Of a stretch of DNA of 64,000 nt, positions 1 to 13,677 are shown piece after piece. The position numbers were made by a program, and so were the translations under genes. Position 1 is the stretch's first letter. Each line of letters starts with the position of its first letter. Below the pieces are notes generated by a model. That model worked only from the letters and a program-made list of their open reading frames with translations, was not told the DNA's origin and ran no database searches. The stretch is from Deltaproteobacteria bacterium (GTDB lineage Bacteria > Myxococcota > Myxococcia > Myxococcales > 40CM-4-68-19). The stretch covers positions 1-64,000 of the forward strand of contig JANYKT010000114.1 of the NCBI GenBank assembly GCA_025358085.1. Direction: 5' to 3'.

Positions 1-942
1 TTCTGCGACGTCATTCACGAGCGGATGAAGCAGAAGCCCTATGACGAACTGATCTCCGGCTGCGATACCTTGTCGAGCGTGGTGCCGCGGCAGCAGGCCG
101 AAAAGCTGGCGGTGATTCAGGAGATCATCAATGAATTGCCCAACAGCGTGATCGCCCGCGCGCCTTCGGACCAGCGGGAGCGCCTGCGCACCGTCCGCGA
201 TCAGCTCGCGGCGCAGCGGCAGGTGTCCCCCGCCGATGTGGAGAAGCAGGCGCCGTCCCTGATGGATCGCTTCCGCGAGCGCGACGGCGCCATCGGCAAC
301 CTGGCTGTGGTCACCGCCGCGCCCAACGCGAAGACCGAGCTGGCGGAGAACCTGCGCAACTTCGTCAAAGGGGTCCGCAACGTGCAGGTCGCCGGCCGGA
401 GCTGGGACGCCACGGGTGAGAACGTCATCTTCGCCGACCTGCTCGACAACATCGATCGCGAAGGTCCCCGGACTACTTTTCTCTCTTTCGCAGGCGTTTT
501 TCTTCTGGTGTTCATCTTCTTCCGCCGCATCCGCACCAGCGTCGAAGTGGTAGGAACGTTGACCGTCGGAATCATCTTGATGTGCGGCGCGGCCACCCTG
601 CTTGGATTGAAGATCAACTTCTTCAACTTCATCGTCTTTCCGATCACCTTCGGTATCGCCGTTGATTACGGCGCGAACGTCGCGGCTCGTATTCACGAGC
701 GAGGCGGACAGGTGCTCGCCTCGCTGGCGGAAGTCGGCCCCGCGGTCGCTTTGTGTTCGTGGACTTCAATCATTGGCTATGGGTCTCTTTTGCAAGCAGC
801 CAATCGCGCACTGAGGTCTTTTGGCTGGTACGCGATGGTCGGCGAAGTAACGACGATTGCCACTGCGCTGATCCTGCTTCCTGCGCTTCTGCTGCTCGCC
901 CGTCCACGCGGGCCCGTCGCGCGCCCCGACGAACAGGCCTGA
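1..942 (+). CDS. MMPL/RND-family exporter, C-terminal part (5' end outside window)
   Basis: The reading frame is open from base 1, so this is the 3' end of a longer gene; about 313 residues are visible. A periplasmic loop is followed by a run of hydrophobic helices in the last 150 residues. The segment FGIAVDYGANVAARI matches the conserved G-x-x-x-D-Y region of transmembrane helix 4 in MMPL/RND exporters, which normally drives proton-coupled export of lipids or hopanoid-type molecules. The substrate cannot be told. The last 240 bases matter for the neighbourhood, because parts of them recur in degraded form at 8671-8780, beyond the nos operon. Confidence 0.8.
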   Translation, partial: FCDVIHERMKQKPYDELISGCDTLSSVVPRQQAEKLAVIQEIINELPNSVIARAPSDQRERLRTVRDQLAAQRQVSPADVEKQAPSLMDRFRERDGAIGNLAVVTAAPNAKTELAENLRNFVKGVRNVQVAGRSWDATGENVIFADLLDNIDREGPRTTFLSFAGVFLLVFIFFRRIRTSVEVVGTLTVGIILMCGAATLLGLKINFFNFIVFPITFGIAVDYGANVAARIHERGGQVLASLAEVGPAVALCSWTSIIGYGSLLQAANRALRSFGWYAMVGEVTTIATALILLPALLLLARPRGPVARPDEQA

Positions 943-1231
943 CGCTGCTGTTGTCGCAGGACGCGAAGGCGCGAATTCGCGCAACAAATGCGTGGGTGCA
1001 AACCTTGCGCGCCAACTAGCACCCATCACGCGGAACGCAGAGTGCGCGCGGCAAAAGAGCCCCTCGCGCGATGCTGCGCGAACCAGAGCCTTGGCAATTG
1101 CCGCATCAGTCTCTCCTCGGGCGCAACGGATGCGCAGCGCCAATGCCTCTCCTGCGCGGATCTCATAGACGAAACGTTTTTGGCGCAAATAATGCAGCCC
1201 GGAAGCCGAAGCACTCCTGAGAAGGGACCCT
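943..1231. other. Intergenic region upstream of nosZ
   Basis: No convincing gene. It contains a perfect 14-bp palindrome (GCGCGAATTCGCGC, 969-982), a possible 8-bp hairpin (GTGGGTGC 992-999 with GCACCCAT 1019-1026, no T tract) and a 10-bp palindrome GGCAATTGCC (1093-1102). One of these could be an operator for the nos operon, but none matches the FNR consensus TTGATnnnnATCAA. A Shine-Dalgarno-like GAAGG lies at 1221-1225. Confidence 0.35.
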
Positions 1232-3271
1232 ATGACTTCGCTTCATTCCCGAACAACGGTTGTCGTCGCTGCTGTGGCTGTCGCAGCGCTCCTGGCCTGG
1301 TCGCGGACGAATAGCGGCTCACTGATACCCGTGGCCCATGCGAGCGCTTCGAATCCGCTGGACCAGATCATCCAGGCGCGGGGCCTGACCCCCGACGAGG
1401 CGGCGGCTGCACTCAAGGTCTTCGTGCCACCCGGCAAGTACGATGATTTCGTGATGATCACCTCCGGCGGTCACCGCGGCTCGGTCATGCTTTACGGCAT
1501 TCCTTCAATGCGGCTGCTGAAAGAGATTCCAGTCTATTCCCCCGACTCCTGGCAGGGCTATGCGCAGGGCGGCACCGACTCAATGGAACTTCTTAAGAAG
1601 GGCTCGTTCGGGCCCGGCCTGCCCACGCTCACCTGGGGCGACCTGCACCATCCCCAACTCTCCTTGACCAATGGCAAGTATGACGGTGAATGGATTGCCG
1701 TTTCGGACAAGGCCGCCGGCCGCGTTGGAATCATTTCAATGAAGGATATGCGCACCAAGACCATCTACAAGACGCCGAATACGGTCAGCGACCACCACGC
1801 CGTCTTTACCGATGACAGCGAATGGCTGGTGCAAAGCGCGTACTTCCCCATGCCCTTCAATGAGAAGAATGGCTATGCCCCGATCGAGCAGTTCAAGGAC
1901 AAATACCGGGGCAGCGCCAGCTTCCTCAAGTTCGACAAGGTGCACGGCGCCATCGAGGTCGCAAAATCTTTCCAGATTGAGCTGCCGCCCTACTTTCAGG
2001 ACTTGAGTATCCTCGGCCGGGGACCCAGCGATGGCCTCTTCTTCATCAACTCGATGGACACCGAGCTGGCCTACGGTGGAGACCTGGAAGGCCGGCCGCC
2101 ACTGGAAATCGGCGCCTCGATGCGCGAAATGGATTACCTGCATGTGATCGACTGGCACAAGGCTCTCGAGCTTTCCGCTAAACCCGGCATGACTCATATG
2201 ATCAATGGGATCCGGGTCATGCCGCTCGCTACCGCGGTGGCTGAGGGAATCATCTATTTCGTTCCCGAATCAAAGAGTCCGCACGGCGTCGATCTCACGC
2301 CGGGAGGCGAGTACCTCGCCATCTCCGGCAAGCTGGACCCGCACGTGTCGGTCTTCAGCGTGGAGAAGATCAAGAAGGCCATCGCCGACAAGAATTTCGA
2401 GGGCAAGGATCCGTATGGCGTCCCGGTCCTCAAATATGATGCCTGCCTCGAGGCCCACGTCGCGGTCGGCCTGGGGCCGTTGCACACGGTCTTCGACGAC
2501 AAGGGATATGCATATACCTCCCTGTTCCTCGACAGCGCGGTGGCCAAATGGTCGCTGGGCGGCGCCTATGCGGCGAAGAACAAGGAGAAGGAGTCCTGGA
2601 AGCTGGTGGACAAGGTCTCCATCCATTACAACGTCGGGCATCTCCAGGCCCCCGGCTCGAATACCCGCCACCCTTATGGGAAGTATCTCGTCGCTCTCAA
2701 CAAGTGGTCTGTCGATCGCTTTCCTCCGCTGGGACCCCTGCACCCGCAAAACCTCCAGTTAATCGATATCAGCGGGCCAAAGATGGTGCTGTTGAGTGAC
2801 ACGCCCACCATCGGCGAGCCGCACAACGCGATGATCCTTCCGATCGAGCTCATGCAGGCCTGGCGCACCTATCCGGAGACCGGCTTCGACGCTGCGAAGA
2901 TGACCCACAGCGCGTATGCGGTCACACAGGGCAAGGAAAGAATCGAGCGCAAGGGCAACGTGGTCACCGTCTTTGGAACGGTGATGCGCTCGCACTTCAC
3001 GCCCGACACGGTGCGGGTGAAAGAGGGCGACAAAGTCGTCTTCAACTGGACCAACGTGGAGACGGCCGAGGACGCGACGCATGGGTTCGGCCTGCACGGC
3101 TACAACATCAATCTCTCCATTGACCCGGGCGCGACCGAGCGCGCGGAGTTCGTGGCCGTCAAGGGCGGGGTCTATCCCTTCTATTGCACCGAGTTCTGCT
3201 CGGCACTGCATATGGAAATGACCGGCTGGCTTTTGGTCGAGCCCAAGGGTACCAAGCTGGCGGAGAAGTAG
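1232..3271 (+). CDS. nosZ: Nitrous-oxide reductase, Sec-dependent (clade II type)
   Basis: Periplasmic copper enzyme that reduces N2O to N2; 679 residues. The N terminus is an ordinary Sec signal peptide (hydrophobic residues about 9-22, AHASA near 35-39) with no twin-arginine motif, which marks the clade II (atypical) form. CuZ-type histidines are visible, for example DHH at 187-189. The C-terminal cupredoxin domain carries the complete CuA site C652-x3-C656-x3-H660-x2-M663. The start is supported by GAAGG at 1221-1225. The GTG start of the next gene lies 2 bases after the stop, so nosZ heads a tight operon of six genes, all on this strand. Confidence 0.97.
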   Translation: MTSLHSRTTVVVAAVAVAALLAWSRTNSGSLIPVAHASASNPLDQIIQARGLTPDEAAAALKVFVPPGKYDDFVMITSGGHRGSVMLYGIPSMRLLKEIPVYSPDSWQGYAQGGTDSMELLKKGSFGPGLPTLTWGDLHHPQLSLTNGKYDGEWIAVSDKAAGRVGIISMKDMRTKTIYKTPNTVSDHHAVFTDDSEWLVQSAYFPMPFNEKNGYAPIEQFKDKYRGSASFLKFDKVHGAIEVAKSFQIELPPYFQDLSILGRGPSDGLFFINSMDTELAYGGDLEGRPPLEIGASMREMDYLHVIDWHKALELSAKPGMTHMINGIRVMPLATAVAEGIIYFVPESKSPHGVDLTPGGEYLAISGKLDPHVSVFSVEKIKKAIADKNFEGKDPYGVPVLKYDACLEAHVAVGLGPLHTVFDDKGYAYTSLFLDSAVAKWSLGGAYAAKNKEKESWKLVDKVSIHYNVGHLQAPGSNTRHPYGKYLVALNKWSVDRFPPLGPLHPQNLQLIDISGPKMVLLSDTPTIGEPHNAMILPIELMQAWRTYPETGFDAAKMTHSAYAVTQGKERIERKGNVVTVFGTVMRSHFTPDTVRVKEGDKVVFNWTNVETAEDATHGFGLHGYNINLSIDPGATERAEFVAVKGGVYPFYCTEFCSALHMEMTGWLLVEPKGTKLAEK

Positions 3272-3273
3272 CC

Positions 3274-5247
3274 GTGGCCGGAGACGCCGACATTCGCCGT
3301 CCCGATCGCGTTGCCAGCCTGACCCTGCTGGTGGTGGCTCTGTTGGCGCTGGGCTGGTCCTGGTCGGCACCCTGGTGGGAAATGCAGGCGCGAGCGCCGC
3401 AATATGGGCAGCGCACGTTGATCGTCGAGGTCAATCCGCGCGGCGTCGTGGGCGACGTCTTCGAGATCGACACGCTCGGGCATTACGTCGGCATCAGCAA
3501 GATGGAGAACTTCGCGCCCTTCGAGCGGCGACTGGCCCCGTTCGGGCTCATCGCCGCCATTCTGGGAATGTTCGCGGCGCCGTGGCTGCGGCGACCCTGG
3601 CAGCGCCTCCTGGCGGTGCTGCCGACGGTGGCCCTGCCGACGCTCTTCCTCCTCGATCTCGACTTGACCATGGCCCGCGCAGCCAACGACCGCGACCCCG
3701 ACGCGGCACTCAATCTGGTCCTCGGGCACGTGGACACCCGCCTGTTCGGCGAATACGTGCTCGCACAGTTCAAGGTGACCGCGCGTCCCGGTATCGGCCT
3801 CTTCCTCGCTGCCATTGCCGCACTGCTCGGACTGGGACTGGTCTTCGCGGTGCCCCTGCAACTCCGCAGGCGCAAGCTGCAGGCGACGGTGGCCGGAGCG
3901 GTGGCCGCCGCGCTCTGCCTGGTCGTGAGCGGCAGCGCGCAAGCGGCGGACCTCATCGTCAAAGAGGGCCAGAGCCTCGTGACAGCGATCGAGGGGGCCC
4001 GTGCTGGAGACACCCTCTTGATCGCTGGCGTGCACCGCGAGCGCGTGACCGTCAACAAGCGATTGCGCCTGTTGGGCTCCGACGGCGCAGTGCTTGACGG
4101 TGGTGGCGCTGGCACCGTGCTGCGCATCGAGGCCGACGGCGTCGAGGTAGAGGGCCTCGCCCTCCGCGGCAGCGGCGACGTCTACACTTCTGAGGACGCA
4201 GCGGTCCGCATCGAGCGCGCCGCGGGCGTACAGCTTCGACGGCTTCGCATCGAGGACACGCTCTTTGGTATCTTCGCGGTGCAGGCCGACCGCTGCCTCG
4301 TCGAAGGTTCGACCATTACCGGCAAAGACCTGCCCACTGAGCGCCGCGGCGATGGCATCCGCCTCTGGTACTCGGGCGGCTGCAAGCTGCTGGGGAACGT
4401 GCTTGATCGCAGCCGCGACCTCGTCATCTGGTATTCGTCGAACACGCTGGTTGAGAACAATGTCGTGCGTCACAGCCGCTATGGCCTTCATTACATGTTC
4501 TCGGACGACAACGTCTTCCGCGGCAATCGATTCGAGGACGATGAGGTCGGTGCAGCCATCATGTACAGCCGCCGCATCCTGCTGGAGGGGAATGCTTTCT
4601 CGTTCGCAACCGGGGTCTCGGCAAATGGTGTCTTGATCAAGGATGCAGACGACGTTTTCATCCGGGGAAATCGCTTCGTTGGAAACGCCATCGCCCTGTT
4701 TCTCGACAGCGCGCCACAGTCGCGGGGCGGAAAGCTGGAGGTCCGCGGCAACCTCTTCGCCCGCAACGACGTCGCCGTTGCGCTGCAGCCAAGCGGGAGC
4801 GGAGCCGCCTTCTGGGAAAACGCTTTCATCGGTAATCACACCCAGGTGCAGATACAAGGGACCGGCACCGCCGCCCATACACAGTGGTCGGTGGGCGGCC
4901 GGGGCAACTACTGGAGCGACGCGTTGGTGTACGACAGCGCGGGAACTGGAGTGTCGGCGCTGCCCTATCGCCCCGAGAGCAGCTACGAAGTGCTGGCGGA
5001 CCGCTATCCGTCGCTGGCTTTCTTCGACGGCACGCCCGCGGCCGACGCCATTGACATGGCCTCGCGGCTGTTTCCCCTCTTCCCGCCCCGGCCCAAACTG
5101 ATTGATGCGCATCCGTTGGTACGGCCGCCGCTGGACGATTGGACTCTGAATCGCGGCGAGCGCTCCGGGCACCTGGCTTTTGCCGGAAGTTCAGTCTTCG
5201 CGCTGGCGGCAGCGCTGCTTTGGGGGGCACGAAGGGCAGTGTCATGA
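3274..5247 (+). CDS. nosD: Fused NosB-like membrane domain and NosD copper-maturation protein
   Basis: One uninterrupted frame of 657 residues starts at GTG 3274, 2 bases after the nosZ stop; an ATG at 3184 would lie inside nosZ and is unlikely. Residues 1-200 form a membrane domain with helices near 13-31, 88-104, 111-127 and 172-193. A periplasmic loop containing GDVFEIDTLGHYVGISKM resembles NosB of clade II clusters. Residues 203-224 look like the former NosD signal peptide (ending SAQA), now an internal helix. Residues 226-620 are the parallel beta-helix (CASH/NosD) repeats that help assemble the CuZ centre. A final helix lies near 637-655. No stop or frameshift separates the two halves. 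NosB and NosD are normally separate proteins, so the fusion is unusual. Confidence 0.88.
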   Translation: MAGDADIRRPDRVASLTLLVVALLALGWSWSAPWWEMQARAPQYGQRTLIVEVNPRGVVGDVFEIDTLGHYVGISKMENFAPFERRLAPFGLIAAILGMFAAPWLRRPWQRLLAVLPTVALPTLFLLDLDLTMARAANDRDPDAALNLVLGHVDTRLFGEYVLAQFKVTARPGIGLFLAAIAALLGLGLVFAVPLQLRRRKLQATVAGAVAAALCLVVSGSAQAADLIVKEGQSLVTAIEGARAGDTLLIAGVHRERVTVNKRLRLLGSDGAVLDGGGAGTVLRIEADGVEVEGLALRGSGDVYTSEDAAVRIERAAGVQLRRLRIEDTLFGIFAVQADRCLVEGSTITGKDLPTERRGDGIRLWYSGGCKLLGNVLDRSRDLVIWYSSNTLVENNVVRHSRYGLHYMFSDDNVFRGNRFEDDEVGAAIMYSRRILLEGNAFSFATGVSANGVLIKDADDVFIRGNRFVGNAIALFLDSAPQSRGGKLEVRGNLFARNDVAVALQPSGSGAAFWENAFIGNHTQVQIQGTGTAAHTQWSVGGRGNYWSDALVYDSAGTGVSALPYRPESSYEVLADRYPSLAFFDGTPAADAIDMASRLFPLFPPRPKLIDAHPLVRPPLDDWTLNRGERSGHLAFAGSSVFALAAALLWGARRAVS

Positions 5248-5915
5248 TCGATATCAAGGAAGTCAGTCTCGACCTGGGCGAGCGCCGGGTGTTGGAGTCC
5301 GTCTCCTTCCACGTCGCGCTCGGCGAGTCGGTCGCGCTGGTGGGGCCGAACGGCTCGGGGAAGACCAGCGTGCTCCGCTGCATTCTCGGCCTGCTCCCGT
5401 ACTCGGGGAAGATCACTGTGGGCGGGCACGACGCGTTCTGCGAGCCGGTCGCGGCGCGGACGCTGATTGGCTACCTGCCGCAGCGCTCTGCTTTCGGCGA
5501 CTCGACCGCGGTGGAGACGCTGCGCTTCACCGCGCGGCTGCGCGGCCTCGACCCCGGGCGATCGCTCGCGGCGCTCGAGCGAGTAGGTCTGGCAGCCGTC
5601 GCTCACCAGCGCGCGCGCACCTTCTCAGGCGGCATGCAGCAGCGTCTGGCGCTCGCAGCGGCGCTGCTCTCGAGCCCCAAAATTTTGCTCTTTGACGAGC
5701 CCACCGCCAGCCTCGATCGCGCCGGCCAGAAGAGCTTTCTTGCCTTGGCCGCGAGCCTGCGAGGAGAGGGGCGCACGCTGGTGCTCGCCTCGCACCGCGC
5801 GGAAGAAATTGATCAGCTGGCCGATCGCGTACTTGAGTTGGACTTCGGGCACCTTCTGCCGGAGCGCGCGGGGTCTGCGGTGCTGCCACTCTTCCCGCAG
5901 CGAGCGCAGTCATGA
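5244..5915 (+). CDS. nosF: NosF, ABC ATPase for nitrous-oxide reductase maturation
   Basis: 223 residues. Walker A GPNGSGKT (34-41), ABC signature FSGGMQQ near 130, Walker B ILLFDEP and switch histidine in SHR are all present, so it should hydrolyse ATP. In the family, NosF powers NosY in moving a sulfur or copper-linked factor needed for the CuZ cluster. The ATG at 5244 overlaps the upstream stop (ATGA, 5244-5247), indicating translational coupling; a longer open frame starting at 5139 would lie inside nosD. Confidence 0.93.
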   Translation: MIDIKEVSLDLGERRVLESVSFHVALGESVALVGPNGSGKTSVLRCILGLLPYSGKITVGGHDAFCEPVAARTLIGYLPQRSAFGDSTAVETLRFTARLRGLDPGRSLAALERVGLAAVAHQRARTFSGGMQQRLALAAALLSSPKILLFDEPTASLDRAGQKSFLALAASLRGEGRTLVLASHRAEEIDQLADRVLELDFGHLLPERAGSAVLPLFPQRAQS

Positions 5916-6745
5916 GGCTGCGCGAGACTTCCCTCATCGCCGCCCGCGAAATCCGCGAAGCGCTGCGCAGCCGGTGGTTCGCCGCAGCTGCCGCAAGCTT
6001 CCTGGTGCTGGCGCTGGCGCTGTCGTGGCTTGGGCTCGCCGGGGCGCAGCGCTCGGGCCTGGCGGGCTTCGACCGGACCACCGCGGCGCTCCTCAACCTC
6101 GCCCTCCTCTTCGTACCGCTGATCGCGCTCAGCCTGGGCGGGCTCGGCATCGCGGGAGAGCTGGAGGACGGCTCCCTCGCAGTGCTGCTCGCCAATCCGG
6201 TCACGCGTGCCGAGGTTTTTTTCGGCAAGTACCTGGGCATGATCGGGGCGGTCGGCGCCGCCGTCGTCGCGGGCTTCGGAACCGCGGGCGTGGTCGTCGG
6301 GCTGCTCGCCGGCGGCGGCGAGGTGCGGCCTTTCTTGCTCTTGATCGTGCTGACTCTGCTGCTCGCGGCCGCCATGCTCGCGCTCGGGACGCTAATCTCA
6401 GTGGCCACCCGCAGCCGGGCCCGCGCGGTTGGCGCCGCCTTCGCCGCCTGGCTCGCGCTGGTCTACCTGTGCGACCTCGGGGCCATCGGCCTCGCCATCG
6501 CGCGCGCGCTTTCGCCCGGACAAGTCTTCGCGCTTTCGCTGGTCAACCCGGTCGAGCAGGCGCGCGTGCTGGGGACACTGGCCTTGACCAGCCGGCCCGA
6601 GGTGCTCGGACCCGCGGGCCTCTTCGGCGCCGACCACTTTGGGCCGCTCGGGCTCCAGCTGCTGCTCTTCGGCGCGCTCGTCTTCTGGTCGCTCGCCTCG
6701 CTCGCCGCGGGCTTTTCCCTCTTCCGCAGGGCGGTGGTGTCATGA
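5912..6745 (+). CDS. nosY: NosY, ABC permease for nitrous-oxide reductase maturation
   Basis: 277 residues with about six membrane helices, of the ABC-2 type. The sequence GGLGIAGELEDGSLAVLLA followed by NPVTRAEVFFGKY is typical of NosY-like permeases. It starts by an ATGA overlap with nosF and ends by an ATGA overlap with nosL. It should form the inner-membrane channel partner of NosF and act together with the periplasmic NosD domain. Confidence 0.92.
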   Translation: MRLRETSLIAAREIREALRSRWFAAAAASFLVLALALSWLGLAGAQRSGLAGFDRTTAALLNLALLFVPLIALSLGGLGIAGELEDGSLAVLLANPVTRAEVFFGKYLGMIGAVGAAVVAGFGTAGVVVGLLAGGGEVRPFLLLIVLTLLLAAAMLALGTLISVATRSRARAVGAAFAAWLALVYLCDLGAIGLAIARALSPGQVFALSLVNPVEQARVLGTLALTSRPEVLGPAGLFGADHFGPLGLQLLLFGALVFWSLASLAAGFSLFRRAVVS

Positions 6746-7296
6746 AGCTCTCGCTGATGGTTGCCGCCGTAGCCGCCATCCCCGCCGCCGTGCTGCTCTT
6801 TGGCGGCAGCCCCAAGCCCACCGCGGGACCCGAAGCCATCCAGTACGGCCACGAGGCGTGCGCGCGCTGCCACATGCACTTCGCCATGCCGGGCTTTGCC
6901 GGCGAGCGCCGCGGGCGTGACGGCCGGCTGGCGAAGTTCGACGATCTCGCCTGCCTTCTGCAGGCCATCGCCAGCGCTCACGAGGAGACCACCGAGGCGT
7001 GGGTCGCGGACCACGACGACGGTTCCTGGGTGCCGATCGCGAGCGCTGTCTTCGTGCGCGGCACAATGATCAGCACGCCGATGGGCTCGGGGTTGGTCGC
7101 GTTCAAGGATCGCGCCGCCGCTGCGCGCCTGGCGCGGGCGGCGATCGCGCGCATCGTTCCGCTGGAAGAATTGCTTCGCGACCGCTCGTTGCTGGAGCCG
7201 GGCGCGACTCATGCGGAGGCTGTCCCAGCTCAAGTGCAGCCTGTCCCGGCTCGAGCGGCGCCGATTGCGGCCCGCGCAGAGGAGGCACGTCCATGA
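6742..7296 (+). CDS. nosL: NosL-like copper chaperone
   Basis: 184 residues, start ATG 6742 overlapping the nosY stop. After an N-terminal hydrophobic segment the protein carries C-A-R-C-H-M (about residues 37-42), matching the C-x2-C-x-M copper(I) motif of NosL, followed by the family's D-D-L-A-C-L region. Most NosL proteins are lipoproteins with a Cys at the signal-peptide cleavage site; here that stretch (AAVLLFGGSP) has no cysteine, so the protein is either a membrane-anchored or soluble periplasmic form. The C-terminal 30 residues are Ala/Pro/Val-rich and probably disordered. In the family NosL delivers Cu(I) to apo-NosZ. Confidence 0.88.
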   Translation: MKLSLMVAAVAAIPAAVLLFGGSPKPTAGPEAIQYGHEACARCHMHFAMPGFAGERRGRDGRLAKFDDLACLLQAIASAHEETTEAWVADHDDGSWVPIASAVFVRGTMISTPMGSGLVAFKDRAAAARLARAAIARIVPLEELLRDRSLLEPGATHAEAVPAQVQPVPARAAPIAARAEEARP

Positions 7297-8651
7297 AGCG
7301 CTCGCCAATTGCATTGCTCTGCACGATCTTCTCAACCGTGGGCGGAGGCGCGGCCCGGGCCGAGGGAACACGGCCGCCCCGACCGATCTCCGAGGCGGAC
7401 ATCAAGGCCGGCAAGCCGCTCTACATGCGCGAGTGCAGTGCCTGCCACGGCGAGCGCGGCGACGGAAAGGGTCCGGCGTCGGCCTTCGTTGACCCGGCGC
7501 CGCGAAATTTCCTGCTGAAGCAATTCAAGTTCCGCACCACCGCGTCGGGCGACCCGCCGGCCACCGCCGACATCCTGCGCACCATCGAGCGCGGGTTGCC
7601 CGGTTCGGCGATGCCCTCGTTTGCCTTCCTCCCCGAGCAGGAGCGGAAACAGATTGCCGCCTGGGTGCTCAACATCGCCGACCTGATCGACGACGGCGAG
7701 CCCGCGCCCATCGCCGACCCCGGCACGCCCCCTCCCGCCACGCCAGCATCGGCCGCGCGTGGCAAGGAGCAGTACGCGGCGCTGGGCTGCTTCAACTGCC
7801 ACGGCGCGCTGGGCAAGGGTGACGGGCCGGCAGCGAAGGGCCTCGCCGATGACGATGGCCATCCCATTCCCGTGCGCGACTTCACCGGCGGCATTTTTCG
7901 CGGCGGCAGCGACAGGAAGGATCTCTATTATCGATTCACGGATGGAATGAATGGCACTCCGATGCCTTCATTCGCCGACGGTGTCTCGGATGCGGACCGC
8001 TGGGCCCTGGTCGACTATGTGCAGACTCTGCGGGTCCCGTTGGCAGCCGTTGTTATGTCTAAAGACCCAATCAAGGCGGGGCGCATGGTGACGGCCAGAT
8101 ACAGTTGCCGCGGCTGCCACGTGCTTGACGACGGGAAGGGCGGCGCGGTGGGCCCCGACCTGCGCGTTTCGGGGGCCAAGCTCGGCAGCGACTGGGTGCG
8201 GGCCTTCGTCCAGAAGCCGCGCGAGACGGGGAAGATTTATCCCTGGCGCGTTTGGCGGATGCCGCACCTGGGCGTGACGCCCGAGGAAGCTGAGGTGCTT
8301 GCGAGCTATCTCTCCGCGATGGGCCACCGCAAGCCCGGGCCGGCGACGACGCCGGAGATGGCCTCTGCGACAAAAGAAAAGCTGGATGAAGGCCAGTTGT
8401 ATTACACGGTCAAATGCGCCCAATGCCACGCGCTCGGCAAACTGATCGAGACGCCCCTCGCTGCGCAGCAAGGTCCAGACCTGATCAAGGTCGCCGGCCG
8501 GGTGGACTATGCCTTTGCGCGCAAATGGATTCTCGATCCGAAGAAGATTGATTCGAACAGCCGCATGACCATTCCGGGTCTCACGCCCGGGCAGGTGGAG
8601 GCGGTGCAAACCTTCGTCTGGAGCGCCTCGCTGGCAGCTAAAACCCCCTGA
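7293..8651 (+). CDS. Periplasmic tetraheme c-type cytochrome of the nos operon
   Basis: 452 residues with a signal peptide (cleavage near ARA, 21-23) and four c-heme motifs: CSACH 48-52, CFNCH 166-170, CRGCH 272-276 and CAQCH 375-379. Spacing suggests four class I cytochrome c domains in one chain, each followed by candidate axial methionines such as GSAMPSF and GTPMPSF. The start overlaps the nosL stop (ATGA) and is preceded by GGAGG (7281-7285). Clade II clusters commonly encode one or two small cytochromes c thought to feed electrons to NosZ; here one long protein takes that place. The direct role as NosZ electron donor is inference from operon position. Confidence 0.85.
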   Translation: MKRSPIALLCTIFSTVGGGAARAEGTRPPRPISEADIKAGKPLYMRECSACHGERGDGKGPASAFVDPAPRNFLLKQFKFRTTASGDPPATADILRTIERGLPGSAMPSFAFLPEQERKQIAAWVLNIADLIDDGEPAPIADPGTPPPATPASAARGKEQYAALGCFNCHGALGKGDGPAAKGLADDDGHPIPVRDFTGGIFRGGSDRKDLYYRFTDGMNGTPMPSFADGVSDADRWALVDYVQTLRVPLAAVVMSKDPIKAGRMVTARYSCRGCHVLDDGKGGAVGPDLRVSGAKLGSDWVRAFVQKPRETGKIYPWRVWRMPHLGVTPEEAEVLASYLSAMGHRKPGPATTPEMASATKEKLDEGQLYYTVKCAQCHALGKLIETPLAAQQGPDLIKVAGRVDYAFARKWILDPKKIDSNSRMTIPGLTPGQVEAVQTFVWSASLAAKTP

Positions 8652-8670
8652 AGGTTTGCCACGATCAGCG

Positions 8671-8780
8671 GCGGACAGATGCTCGCCTGGCTGGCGGAAG
8701 TGACGCGCTGGTCCTGCTTCTCGCGCTTCTGCTGCCGCCCGTAGACGCGGGCCCGTGGCCCCTCCGACGAGTCGGCCTGA
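8671..8780 (+). pseudogene. Internally deleted copy of the MMPL gene tail
   Basis: Bases 8671-8701 match 704-734 of the exporter gene with 2 differences in 31. After a 3-base junction, 8705-8780 match 865-942 with about 65 of 78 aligned columns identical, including the stop codon. The 130 bases between these two parts are missing and the frame is broken. The copy begins about 20 bases after the stop of the nos-operon cytochrome gene and has the same orientation as the intact gene. It is therefore a decayed direct repeat that, with the first copy, brackets the nos operon. Confidence 0.8.
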
Positions 8781-8850
8781 CTTCGCGGTTGCGACGCGCC
8801 CTCCGCGAAGATCGGGGGAGTCTCAATTGACCGGGCGGTAGAGTGTCGCA

Positions 8851-9042
8851 ATGGACCGGCTGCGAGGCGATAAGACCGAGGGTCCGTCCAAACCGACGCT
8901 CGAGGAGAAAGCCGAGCAGGCGCTGGAGATGGCCGATACCGCTATCTGGCTCGAGCAAACGGGATTGCGAGCGCGGTATCCGGACGAGAGCGACGCGCAG
9001 ATCGAGCAGCGCTTGCGTGATTGGCTTTCAAGCGATGCGTGA
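8851..9042 (+). CDS. Small helical protein paired with a nucleotidyltransferase
   Basis: 63 residues, charged and predicted helical (EKAEQALEMADTAIWLEQTG, then DESDAQIEQRLRDWL). Similar short proteins commonly precede AbiEii-like nucleotidyltransferase genes in Myxococcota and resemble the smaller partner of a toxin-antitoxin pair; that role is not demonstrated. The last 8 bases overlap the start of the following nucleotidyltransferase gene, which is broken here. Confidence 0.6.
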   Translation: MDRLRGDKTEGPSKPTLEEKAEQALEMADTAIWLEQTGLRARYPDESDAQIEQRLRDWLSSDA

Positions 9043-9434
9043 GACCACCATCAAGGACGCGCTGGCGCACGTCGCCGGGGAGCTGCGCCGGCTACGCAAG
9101 AACTTTGCGCTCGTAGGTGGACTTGCGGTCTCGGTCCGCGGGGACGTCCGGACCACGCGCGACGTCGACCTCGCGGTCGCCGTTGCCGATGACGCCGAGA
9201 CGGAGGCGCTTGCGGCAAGCGAGGACCTTCTGGCGATGAAGCTGCTCTCCGCTCGCGAAGGACGGGCGCGCGATTGGGACTACGCGAGAGGGCTTGTCAG
9301 GGAGAATCCGGTGCTTGATCTTGCGCTCGTCCGCGAGCGGCTGGGCTTGATTTGTATCGCGAGGCTTCTCTCGGAATCAGGATCTCGGGGCAAAGCTTGA
9401 CCAGCTGCTCGCCACGCTTCGAACGACGCGCTGA
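9035..9434 (+). pseudogene. Decayed AbiEii-like nucleotidyltransferase
   Basis: The N terminus keeps the nucleotidyltransferase signature GGLAVSVRG followed by TTRDVDLAV (the GG and D-x-D elements). The expected central region is absent: the sequence jumps from DDAETEAL straight to the C-terminal SEDLLAMKLLS element. Near 9350 the frame is then lost. The typical C terminus (RGFSRNQDLGAKLDQLLATL) is still readable in another frame, ending at TGA 9432-9434, while the original frame stops at about 9400. One internal deletion plus one frameshift make it nonfunctional by appearance. Confidence 0.75.
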
Positions 9435-9565
9435 AAACCAGGGCGTGCGCGCAGCCGATGCGCGCAGGCGCAGGCTTTGCGCGGGACGTGGCCCGTTCTT
9501 TTGGGAGCGGAGCTGCCGTGACAATTTCATGGCACGGCGCGCGCAGGGATCGGCCCGGAGGTCAC

Positions 9566-11323
9566 ATGCATCTCTTCCATATTCCGGTCATGGGAATTGG
9601 TTTCACGGTCGACTCGGCGTTGCGGGTCGCGCGATTCGGTATCTCGACCGTCATCTCGCTGGCCGACGACCGGCTGATCGAGCGGGTCCGCCGGCACTAC
9701 TGCGGGCTGCATGGACTCGAGTTCCAGCCAATCACCGCCCACGATCCCGACGCGCGCGCCAATCGGGTCACCGCCTGGCTCGATCTCATCGACGACCTGG
9801 TCACGCGACAACTCGACGAGCTGCGCGCGCAGCCCTACCAACCCGGCACCGACAAGTGGCGCTACGTCGCGCTGCTGCCGGCCTCCTCCACAGTCAAGCA
9901 GCGATTCCTGCGCGGCGAGGATGCGAGTCAGGATCTTCAGCGCGGCGCTATCGACGTCAACATCATGACCAAGGTGGACAGCGCTGCCTGGGCGTCCGAC
10001 GGCACCCGGCGCCCCCCCGAGTACAGCCTGGCGAAGGCCGCGCTGCGCGGCTTTGCGCGCTCGAAGCTCGCGAGCGGCCTGGTGCTTTCCGCCGGGGTGA
10101 ATCCGTCTCTCTTTGGCTATCTCGAGCAGTTCGACGGATTCCATCGCGACGCGAAGGGCCACGTCGCGAAGCCTACCATCCTCAAAGTCTCGGACCTCCG
10201 CTCCGCGGTGATTCAGGCAAAATTCCTCGCCAAGAAGGGCGTCGAGATCGCGGAGTTCCGCGTCGAGTCGGGCCTCAATTGCGGAGGTCACGTCTTCCCC
10301 ACCGACGGCGCGCTGATGGGCCCCATCCTGCAGCAGTTCAAAGAAGAGCGCGCCTCGTTTCCCGCGCAGTTCGAATCGCTGTTGGAGAGCTGGTATGCGG
10401 CTCGCGGCCGGACGCTGCACGCCTCGGGGCGGGGCCGGCGCATCCTCGTCACCGCCCAGGGCGGCGTCGGGACGGCCGGCGAAATGCGACGGCTCAGCGA
10501 GCATTACGGAATGGACAGCGTCGGCTGGGCTACGCCCTTCCTGCTGGTGCCCGAAGTCACGCTGATGGACGAGGCGACCCGCGTGCAACTCTCGGCTGCC
10601 ACCGAGGACGATCTCTATGTCAGCAACGCATCACCGCTGGGCGTGCAGTTCAATAACCTTCGCGGCTCGTCGTCCGAGGTGTGGCACCGCACCCGCGTGG
10701 CCGAGGGCAAGCCCGGGTCGCCCTGCCCCAATGGGTTACTGGCAATGAATTGCGAATTCAACGGTGAGGGAAAGCCGCTCTGCGTGGCCTCGGCGGCGTA
10801 CCAGGAGAAGAAGCTCGCGACCCTCGGCTTTGCCAGCCCGCCCGTATGGAATGCCGCGAAAGCAGTCTACGAGAAAGCTTGCATTTGCGTGCACCTCGGC
10901 AACCCCGCGCTGCTGGGCCTCGGGATCGAGACCCGCGCGCTGCCGGTCGCCGTCTGTCCGGGCCCGAACCTGGCTTATTTCGACCGGACCTATCGATTGG
11001 AGGAGATGGTGGACCATATCTATGGTCGCAGGGAGAGCCTGGTGCCTGCGAACCGTCCCCACTTCTTTGCCAAGGAGCTGCAGCTCTATGTCGACCATTG
11101 CGAAGGATTAGAAGGAAAGAAGGCCGAGGCCTTTCGCGACAAGCTCCTGGAGGGGATCGCCGTCTATCGCGCGCTCTGCAAGCTGCCCGCGTTTCCGGGA
11201 GAGAATCTGGATTCGCTGCGGACCGCGCTGGACGCTGAGGAGGCCCGCTTGCGGGCGCGCGCTCCGGTTGACGCGTCAATGACAGATGCACCGGCAGCCC
11301 GCCCTCGGGCGCAGGCTTTTTAG
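9566..11323 (+). CDS. Uncharacterised 585-residue protein, possible FMN-binding TIM-barrel oxidoreductase
   Basis: Start ATG 9566 is preceded by GGAGGT (9557-9562); the frame is open further upstream without a better start. The protein is not recognised as a named enzyme. It begins MHLFHIPVMGIGFTVD, and residues near 295-325 (VTAQGGVGTAGE followed by GWATPFLLVPE) resemble the phosphate-binding loop of nitronate monooxygenase/PfaD-type FMN barrels. The C-terminal third is cysteine-rich (SPCPNG, AMNCEF, PLCVAS, KACICVHLGN), which could hold a metal or an Fe-S cluster. I recall similar unnamed proteins in Bacteroidota, but the function is unknown to me. It stands alone between a decayed gene and a convergent operon. 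Confidence 0.8.
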   Translation: MHLFHIPVMGIGFTVDSALRVARFGISTVISLADDRLIERVRRHYCGLHGLEFQPITAHDPDARANRVTAWLDLIDDLVTRQLDELRAQPYQPGTDKWRYVALLPASSTVKQRFLRGEDASQDLQRGAIDVNIMTKVDSAAWASDGTRRPPEYSLAKAALRGFARSKLASGLVLSAGVNPSLFGYLEQFDGFHRDAKGHVAKPTILKVSDLRSAVIQAKFLAKKGVEIAEFRVESGLNCGGHVFPTDGALMGPILQQFKEERASFPAQFESLLESWYAARGRTLHASGRGRRILVTAQGGVGTAGEMRRLSEHYGMDSVGWATPFLLVPEVTLMDEATRVQLSAATEDDLYVSNASPLGVQFNNLRGSSSEVWHRTRVAEGKPGSPCPNGLLAMNCEFNGEGKPLCVASAAYQEKKLATLGFASPPVWNAAKAVYEKACICVHLGNPALLGLGIETRALPVAVCPGPNLAYFDRTYRLEEMVDHIYGRRESLVPANRPHFFAKELQLYVDHCEGLEGKKAEAFRDKLLEGIAVYRALCKLPAFPGENLDSLRTALDAEEARLRARAPVDASMTDAPAARPRAQAF

Positions 11324-11348
11324 CGGAATGGCTCCGAGGTAACGGGTT

Positions 11349-12149
11349 CTACCCGCAAGCGGCCGCCACTGCTTTCGATACGTCGTACAGCATCGCCCCA
11401 CGGTCGGAAACGGCGAGCTCCGGAGCCGGCATGCCGCTCTGCTTCAGCAACGAATTGTAACCGAGCTCCGCGAGCGGCTTCAAGTGGAAGACATCGTAGA
11501 GGTTGTATTCGACCAGCCGGCGCAACGCGACCGGATCTCCCTGCCGCTGCGCTTCCCAAAGCCAGAGCGCGTCAGTGCCGGAGAGTTGCGCAAGGTGGGG
11601 CGGCCGGAAGAGCCCAAAGCGAGGCTCCACTTTCTTGAGGCCGCCGGGCATGCGCAGCTTCTGGAAGACGTGGCGCAGGTCGATGTGCACCGGTGGCGGT
11701 GTCCACGAGGGAAAGGCGCGGCGCAGGATCGGCAAATCAAAGACGGTCCCATTGAAGGTGACGAGTGCTTTCCAGCTGCGCGCACGCTCGGGGAAGTCGT
11801 CGAGATCGCGACCGCGGATGAAGCAATGAATGCCCCGCGCATCCATGATCCCGACGACCGCGACATCGTGCGCCCATTCGATATCGAGGTAGGCGGCGCC
11901 GTCGATCACCTGCGGCAGCAAACGCCAGTGCTCGGTCGTGGCCAACGCGTTGGCGAAGTAGTTCAAATCCCCGGCAAGCAAATGTTCCCTGCTTTGCGCG
12001 ACGCCTTCTCGCAGCCGCTCGTCGAAGCGATGCGCGAGGATTTCCCCAGAGGCGGTGACGTCGTCCCAGGAGCGCACGCCCGCAAGCCAGAGCTGCCGCT
12101 CGCGCATTCCGCCCACTCCTCCGATGTGCCGGAAGGAGGCGGTGATCAC
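11349..12149 (-). CDS. HhH plus RNase H-fold DEDDy exonuclease, YprB-like
   Basis: 266 residues if started at GTG 12149, which overlaps the mutT stop (GTGA); starting at the internal ATG (12107) would cut off a helix-hairpin-helix-like N terminus (FRHIGGVGGMRERQLWLAG). The catalytic fold shows the DEDDy pattern: LDIEW (D and E), TFNGTVFDLP (D) and YNLYDVFHL (Y and D). Family members are YprB-type ribonuclease H-like proteins, probably 3'-5' exonucleases acting on DNA or RNA. It is the last gene of a coupled four-gene minus-strand operon. Confidence 0.82.
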   Translation of the reverse strand: MITASFRHIGGVGGMRERQLWLAGVRSWDDVTASGEILAHRFDERLREGVAQSREHLLAGDLNYFANALATTEHWRLLPQVIDGAAYLDIEWAHDVAVVGIMDARGIHCFIRGRDLDDFPERARSWKALVTFNGTVFDLPILRRAFPSWTPPPVHIDLRHVFQKLRMPGGLKKVEPRFGLFRPPHLAQLSGTDALWLWEAQRQGDPVALRRLVEYNLYDVFHLKPLAELGYNSLLKQSGMPAPELAVSDRGAMLYDVSKAVAAACG

Positions 12150-12574
12150 CGCTGCTCGCCCGCAGGCGTGCGCCGGAGTTCTTCTTCGGCCAGGAGCGAG
12201 AGCACCGGCACGTCGGCCTCGCAAAATGGCAGCGCGGGCAGGTCGCGCCGGGCGACCCAGCGGACCTCCTGCGCCGAGAGCGGTCGCGGCTCCTCGCCCT
12301 GGTGCAGCGTGCAGCGATAGAGAGCCAGCTCGACTTGCAGGTCGGGATAAATGTGCTCGAGCCGAGCATATTCCTCGCCCACCTGTGCCCGCACGCCAAG
12401 CTCCTCGCGCAGCTCGCGATAGAGCGCGGCGCGCTCGCCTTCGCCCGGCTCGACCTTGCCGCCAGGGAATTCCCACAGGGACGCTCGCTCGCCGTCGGCC
12501 CGCCGCAGCGACACCAGCACCGCGTCTTCCCTTTCGATCACCGCCGCGACGACCAGCACGCGGCGCAGGCTCAC
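12146..12574 (-). CDS. MutT-type Nudix hydrolase (8-oxo-dGTP diphosphatase-like)
   Basis: 142 residues from GTG 12574, which overlaps the stop of the upstream gene (GTGA). The Nudix box is complete: GGKVEPGEGERAALYRELRE followed by ELG. The pre-box LWEFPGGKVEPGE is typical of MutT proteins that cleanse oxidised nucleotides. A C-terminal segment with SAQEVRWV and DVPVLSLLA also fits. Both ends overlap neighbouring genes, so it is translated as part of the operon with the downstream nuclease. Confidence 0.88.
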   Translation of the reverse strand: MSLRRVLVVAAVIEREDAVLVSLRRADGERASLWEFPGGKVEPGEGERAALYRELREELGVRAQVGEEYARLEHIYPDLQVELALYRCTLHQGEEPRPLSAQEVRWVARRDLPALPFCEADVPVLSLLAEEELRRTPAGEQR

Positions 12575-13677
12575 GGGAGCAGGCCCAGCGAAAACAGCGA
12601 GCCGGAATTCGAGATGATGTAGACGACGCCCGGTATGGCGAGCGGCGCCATCGAAAATCCGCTGCCGGGATCGAAAGCGCCGCGGGGCGAACCGCTCTGC
12701 GCGTCCAGCGCCAGCAACGGCCCGCGGTCTTCCGCCAGCAGCACCAGGCCATTCATGGCGACCGGCTGCGTGGTGTAGTGGTCGCCGCTGAGCTTGAGAC
12801 GCCACAATTCGGCGCCGCTCTGGCGGTCGAGAGCGAGCAGCAGGCCGCGCCCACCAGCGAAGATGCGCGGACCATCCACCAGCACATGATTGGCCCCCGG
12901 CAGCGCGGCGCTCCAGCTGCTCTCACCCGTGGCGGCGTCGAGGGCCAGCGCGCCCAGCTTGGCGCTCGCCACGTAGACCCGCGTATCGGCTTCCGGGGCC
13001 TCGAGCCAATCGACATCGAGGTACTCGCCGGTCCCGCTCACCTGGCGCGACCATTTCAGTGCGCCGTCAGCCGGATTCAAGGCCGCGACCGTGCCGTCGG
13101 CAAAGGCCGCGAACACCAGGCCGTGCGCCACTTGCGGCCGCGCGTTGCCGCGGATGGTGAAGCCGCCCGGCGGGTCGCGATGGAACTTCCATAGACTCTT
13201 ACCCTCTTTGGCATCAATCGCGGTCAGCGACTCTTCGCTCGACATGACGAACAGCCGGCCGTCCGCGATGGTGGGCGTGGTGGTCAGCTCTTCATGCAGG
13301 TCCAGCTGCCAACGCTTTTCGCCGGTAATGCGATTCAATGAGGTCAGCGTGCCGTCGGCCGAGGTGACGTAGAGCGACTCGCCGTCGAGCAACGGCGCCG
13401 CCAGAATGGCGTTGCGGGCGCGCCAGTTCCACGCGGTCTTGCCGCGAAACAGACAGCGCACCACGCCGTCATAGGTGCCGACGTACATCCGGCTCGCGGA
13501 CCCGTCGAGCACCGGCGACGCCGTCTCGCGCGGCTGAAAGGGCAACTTCTGCAGCGGGACCAGCCGCAGCATATCGCCGACGAAGAAGGGGCGGTCCAGC
13601 TGCGACGCCCGCACGGCGGGCCGCGGCGAGTGCCCCAGCGGGATGGACGAAAACGCGAGCAGGAGCGCCAGCACCAT
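12571..13677 (-). CDS. BamB-like PQQ/WD beta-propeller protein
   Basis: 368 residues with an N-terminal hydrophobic signal segment and repeated PQQ-like blades (for example LYVTSADGTLTSLNRITGEKRW, read here as YVTSADGTL..TGEKRW, and GLVFAAFADGTVAALNPADG). This is the fold of BamB, the outer-membrane protein assembly lipoprotein, although no lipobox cysteine is visible. The gene upstream encodes a YfgM-like protein, reproducing the yfgM-bamB pair of gamma-proteobacteria, which supports an envelope assembly role. Periplasmic location is inferred. Confidence 0.72.
   Translation of the reverse strand: MVLALLLAFSSIPLGHSPRPAVRASQLDRPFFVGDMLRLVPLQKLPFQPRETASPVLDGSASRMYVGTYDGVVRCLFRGKTAWNWRARNAILAAPLLDGESLYVTSADGTLTSLNRITGEKRWQLDLHEELTTTPTIADGRLFVMSSEESLTAIDAKEGKSLWKFHRDPPGGFTIRGNARPQVAHGLVFAAFADGTVAALNPADGALKWSRQVSGTGEYLDVDWLEAPEADTRVYVASAKLGALALDAATGESSWSAALPGANHVLVDGPRIFAGGRGLLLALDRQSGAELWRLKLSGDHYTTQPVAMNGLVLLAEDRGPLLALDAQSGSPRGAFDPGSGFSMAPLAIPGVVYIISNSGSLFSLGLLP

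Follow-up and report, generated by a model that had tools for sequence, protein, structure and literature searches.

A clade II nos module bracketed by an exporter gene end and its decayed copy in a myxococcal genome

In a draft genome of the Myxococcales (Deltaproteobacteria bacterium, GCA_025358085.1), all genes of a nos module are located between two copies of the 3' end of a neighbouring exporter gene, the second copy being short and diverged. The window, meaning here the whole stretch of 64,000 nucleotides analysed, occupies the beginning of contig C26 (89,214 bases), in an assembly of 5.4 Mb and 217 contigs. The reading proposed for this locus, which is given about an even chance of being right, is an old insertion in one piece, by gain or by relocation, of nosZ, nosD, nosF, nosY, nosL and a cytochrome c gene together with their promoter, duplicating the 3' end of the exporter gene. 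The features concerned are listed in Table 1.

Table 1. Features at the exporter–nos locus of the window
Feature	Coordinates	Strand	Evidence and remarks
MMPL-family (RND-type, HpnN-like) exporter gene, 3' part	1..942	+	Pfam MMPL PF03176, E 2.4e-15
Repeat block 1 in exporter gene	703..734	+	30/32 identical to 8670-8701
Repeat block 2 in exporter gene, stop codon included	865..943	+	66/79 columns identical to 8705-8781
Candidate sigma-54-type -24/-12 promoter of nosZ, GG-N10-GC	1181..1195	+	8/11 consensus positions; 36 nt before ATG
nosZ, Sec-dependent (clade II) nitrous-oxide reductase	1232..3271	+	TIGR04246, 745 bits, cut-off 625; nos_propeller
nosD, N-terminal extension of about 230 residues	3274..5247	+	TIGR04247, 358 bits, cut-off 300, residues 236-617
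nosF, ABC ATPase	5244..5915	+	PF00005; position
nosY, ABC-2 permease	5912..6745	+	PF12679; position
nosL	6742..7296	+	PF05573, E 6.9e-9
Multihaem cytochrome c, last module gene	7293..8651	+	PF00034, three stretches
Copy of block 1	8670..8701	+	Start possibly 8660 (blastn, one gap)
Copy of block 2, in another frame than the block 1 copy	8705..8781	+	
Rv0078B-type antitoxin-like ORF, outside bracket	8851..9042	+	PF18993, E 1e-7
Broken AbiEii-like nucleotidyltransferase (toxin) remnant	9032..9400	+	AbiEii, E 6.6e-4 (cut-off not reached)
ORF of about 585-621 codons, family not recognised	9569..11323	+	
RNase H-like exonuclease gene (about 11349-12149 in ORF; right landmark)	11349..12752	-	PF13482, PF14815

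The earlier note on this DNA had claimed that two blocks of the exporter gene recur in order behind the nos genes, that the stop codon is included and the piece between the blocks deleted, and that the copy starts about 20 bases after the last nos gene and points the same way. Alignment bears this out. The blocks themselves stand; their limits are corrected to those in Table 1, with a possible start of the copy at 8660 and an end at 8781. The 79 columns of block 2 against its copy comprise 66 identities, 11 mismatches and 2 single-base gaps. A long-gap alignment of 601-1000 with 8641-8850 scores 115, against a maximum of 43 (mean 21.8, sd 3.8) in 1000 dinucleotide-preserving shuffles. With blastn, 8641-8850 finds the two exporter blocks at E 8e-17 and 1e-8, the next best match in the whole window having an E of 0.036. 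Searched with 600-1000, the whole assembly yields, besides the exporter gene and both blocks of the copy, one paralogue piece on contig C55 (61 bp, 82%, the tail not being covered) and nothing more. The repeat takes in the TGA stop codon plus one further base, and no similarity is found beyond that point. A hairpin or terminator as the reason for the repeat was rejected, folding being no better than that of shuffles (z 0.55 for block 2 and 0.20 for its copy), and Rfam gave no match.

With a length of only about 110 bp, the copy is a decayed gene end. Just 3 of the 130 inter-block nucleotides remain in it (about 127 are lost), single bases have been lost as well, and the blocks are spaced 35 nt apart in the copy as against 162 nt in the gene, so that the reading frame is broken. 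Deletions aside, roughly every seventh or eighth position differs between the two copies. The exporter carries a C-terminal extension (RPRGPVARPDEQA) with no counterpart in its orthologues (12 other exporter loci in relatives), and the copy preserves this stretch at the DNA level; its possession of a lineage-specific extension indicates an origin in the exporter gene of this same lineage, after the split from the sampled relatives, or in the gene of a very close unsampled relative. A foreign donor was considered and rejected, the window's own exporter being far more alike to the copy than any of the 12 other tails. A single ancestral-looking site bears on the age of the copy, which there shares a Val codon with most orthologues, against Ile in the gene; this is too little for dating.

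Because the contig starts inside the exporter gene, only the last 313 codons are visible, and the N-terminal half has no match anywhere in the assembly. The visible part matches the NCBIfam HpnN model TIGR03480 at E 2.5e-27, a value under the model's cut-off that refers to a fragment only. Between the exporter stop and the nosZ start lie 289 bp (943-1231).

The genes behind the exporter form a set predicted to serve the destruction of nitrous oxide. NosZ scores above the curated cut-off of the Sec-dependent family and nosD, nosF, nosY and nosL lie beside it, nosF and nosY being assigned by family plus position. As in clade II nos clusters generally, nosZ, nosD, nosF, nosY, nosL and the cytochrome c gene run in one direction; the cluster differs in its genome position and in its nosD, which has the N-terminal extension in one frame. 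This extension, which precedes the NosD domain, contains membrane-like stretches, and the NosD proteins of G010, a member of the same family, and of G015, from another family of the order, also align across it. The order nosZ–nosD–nosF–nosY–nosL–cytochrome c is identical in all three genomes.

A nosZ promoter was sought after a divergent sigma-54 activator gene had been seen adjoining nosZ in G010 (L088 11105-12307), and the candidate is thus a post hoc hint. It was scored against the sigma-54 -24/-12 consensus. Similar GG-N10-GC elements lie 37 nt (G010) and 45 nt (G015) before the nosZ start. When the 90-nt upstream pieces were shuffled, 8/11 was reached in 98, 140 and 215 of 5000 cases, and all three elements jointly at like spacing in none of 5000. 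This suggests that the nos unit moved together with its own promoter.

The site was compared in the nine family genomes with an exporter orthologue of at least 60% identity (G001-G005 and G007-G010); G006 and G011, which hold distant exporter homologues only, were left out. None of the nine has nos at the exporter site. An RNase H-like gene follows the exporter on the same contig in seven; in G003 a NUDIX gene takes that place, and in G010 a glycosyltransferase-like gene behind the exporter is the last on the contig. The empty site that the earlier note had anticipated is thus seen, with exporter and RNase H gene nearly touching in two genomes (exporter stop and RNase H match lie 8 nt apart in G005 and 6 nt in G001). 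Elsewhere an AI-2E-type permease occupies a gap of about 1.06-1.07 kb (G002, G008, G009) and a glycosyltransferase-like gene one of 1.5 kb (G007, the same gene as in G010), and in G004 the gap measures about 1.9 kb; the permease and glycosyltransferase names come from reading the sequences, without a family search. The permease lies upstream of the exporter in G005, G007 and G010. The corresponding gap in the window spans 10.4 kb. The exporter–RNase H/NUDIX boundary (window 943-11348; L080-L087, L090) thus holds differing inserts among the relatives, and this varied cargo indicates that the boundary tolerates insertions, nos being one of several. At the nucleotide level, 943-1231 and 8781-9460 have no useful similarity to the relatives' flanks. 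The comparison supports the view that nos is an extra block inserted at the exporter site.

Under the proposed one-piece insertion, the nos module (about 944-8660) would have entered an ancestor directly behind the exporter, between convergent genes, and the joining would have duplicated roughly the final 250 bp of the exporter gene. On the left, the exporter would have kept its intact end; the second copy would have come to lie after the cytochrome gene where, being functionless, it would have decayed by deletions and point changes. A single event of this kind would place the junctions at 943/944 and about 8660-8669; the observed homology stops at the exporter stop codon on the left and, on the right, shortly after the last nos gene. 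One possible route would be the integration, by a single crossover, of a circle that bore nos together with the exporter 3' end. Another would be the joining of a nos fragment between the unequal ends of sister chromosomes. Both routes give the same product. Some observations weigh against this reading: the copy is short, the DNA right of the bracket is extra too, neither flank reveals the old downstream sequence through similarity to the relatives, and no integrase or transposase gene was found between the copies, nor a tRNA gene in the window.

An identical product would also arise if the exporter, or its end, had first been duplicated in tandem and nos inserted later, or if exporter and nos had been duplicated together and the second nos lost. 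Exporter paralogues do exist, as in G005 where a second copy (68%) lies on another contig, and gene order around the exporter varies. However, no strong tandem copy or tail remnant was found in the 12 loci, which yielded weak matches with a best E of 7.6e-4; at least two events would be needed, and the end of the copy at the stop codon would be due to chance. Tandem duplication is accordingly considered unlikely, if still the best placed of the rivals. Single crossover, insertion with a staggered break and tandem duplication with deletion all fit the locus.

Somewhat less likely again is that the tail copy has no bearing on nos, having arisen by a separate local duplication at a later time in decaying intergenic DNA. 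The DNA right of the bracket does contain another gene remain, the broken toxin, in which about 190 bp are missing internally relative to G009 (split match to L097), and a junction signature was not found. Against such a duplication, the copy begins only 9-19 nt past the last nos stop (8649-8651), in the same orientation, and brackets exactly the nos set; it is also already strongly diverged and therefore not recent. Further right, the ORF at 9569-11323 has no match in Pfam, NCBIfam or PDB, and occurs in 2 of the 40 genomes searched, its own and G010 (77%, in a different place). The 5' part of the ORF holding the RNase H gene, which is convergent with the exporter, overlaps a NUDIX gene in another frame. 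The DNA from 8782 to 11348 is also extra, and therefore the repeat bracket does not delimit all of the added DNA.

Direct repeats of a gene 3' end including the stop codon, with cargo between them, are what a site-specific integrative element would leave if it used the exporter 3' end as its attachment site, supplied a replacement 3' end and later lost its integrase. Such attachment sites are known at the 3' ends of other genes, for example e14 at icd, and a tRNA target is common, if not obligatory, for these elements. Of the marks of an integrative element or genomic island, the direct repeat is present, and neither an integrase among the genes between the copies nor a tRNA gene anywhere in the window was found. 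A tRNA-associated island was on the latter ground rejected. PMC4174501 mentions the guaA 3' end. Pfam detects neither integrase nor transposase between the copies, where the six nos-type genes fill 1232-8651 and leave no room for an integrase, so that a recombinase-driven element is improbable; nor is anything element-like seen at the exporter end in the relatives. Transposons leave terminal inverted repeats and a short target duplication of constant length; the stretch duplicated here covers about 240-250 bp of target, much more than is usual. Least probable of all is an artefact of the draft assembly, for which the 217 contigs, the contig start inside the exporter and the missing N-terminal half might speak, since copies that differ to this degree and by deletions are not created by assembly, and nos and its flanks share one 89-kb contig.

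The earlier note had also proposed that the whole module was gained as one unit, to be checked by comparing a NosZ tree with a species tree. The extra block, the conserved six-gene order and the promoter candidate that stays with the genes agree with one unit; horizontal arrival is not shown. Two of the 12 family genomes carry NosZ, the window's own and G010. In the NosZ tree these two are sisters (support 100/99) and form one clade with G015 (100/100); in the RpoB tree G015 groups with the family (92/89), giving the same order for the three genomes and hence no conflict. The base of the NosZ tree is unsure, as long branches meet there. A search of 195 genomes of the phylum, 25 of them with E ≤1e-150, puts the next NosZ at 51% identity. 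Identity to G010 at four-fold sites is 0.59 for nosZ, 0.52 for nosD, 0.44 for nosF, 0.49 for nosY, 0.50 for nosL and 0.53 for the cytochrome gene, a range of 0.44-0.59 as against 0.47-0.66 for other genes of the locus (exporter 0.47, PQQ-repeat-like gene 0.57, the next gene 0.56, and the RNase H ORF 0.66 with a partly overlapping frame), all values being near saturation. The nos genes have thus diverged from G010 like their neighbours, and there is no sign of recent exchange; trees and four-fold sites alike lack the mark of recent horizontal transfer. GC3 is likewise alike, at 0.79-0.90 in the nos genes and 0.68-0.86 in the neighbours.

Other phyla were sampled through plasmid and viral records. 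A plasmid source was rejected: matches in 145 plasmid records are all below 60% identity, the best being a Thermomicrobium replicon at 51%, and viral contigs contained no nos. In the window genome, G010 and G015, nos occupies three unrelated genome positions, and no MMPL exporter tail was found beside nos in G010. An attempt to locate an old nos site through the neighbours of nos in G010 was unsuccessful, as no G010 nos gene matched near either neighbour's match; the best own-genome match of the regulator by G010 nosZ is on C91 (L186 1436-2473), beside a ScdA/hemerythrin gene, and that of the asparaginase by G010 nos is on C139. A long-standing trait of the family that most members have lost would fit as well as an old acquisition, and the data appear to favour neither arrival of nos from outside nor movement within the same lineage. 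Gene loss is treated in PMC4250227.

A literature search for the exporter–nos locus found no paper, an absence that is no proof. Related systems are nevertheless known. According to PMC4174501, the Pseudomonas stutzeri nitrogen-fixation island, which lies between cobS and gshP, resembles the present locus in placing nitrogen-metabolism genes at one chromosomal site with flanking repeats and no integrase or transposase. Its repeats, however, are short and intergenic, whereas here the repeat is a neighbour gene's 3' end, and its site is common to many strains, whereas nos is at the exporter site in one genome only. In Castellaniella, according to PMC11046850, the nos locus adjoins an arginine tRNA gene and, as here, the presence of nos varies among close relatives through insertion at one locus; there, by contrast, a conserved nos locus is replaced by an incoming island, while here nos is itself the insertion and no tRNA gene is near.

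The event at the exporter is of an ordinary kind, cleanly preserved. The repeat is a readable scar of insertion and no proof of a foreign source. Nitrogen-cycle genomics has yet to explain why nitrous oxide reduction is distributed so patchily over closely related organisms, and a scar with a defined empty site makes gain, loss and relocation separable at one locus. As a tentative extension, with a modest chance of being correct, nos in this family may be a self-contained, sigma-54-promoted cassette which has repeatedly moved between insertion-tolerant boundaries without a recombinase, leaving behind a duplicated end of a neighbouring gene; patchy nitrous oxide reduction in the family would then reflect relocation and loss rather than import.
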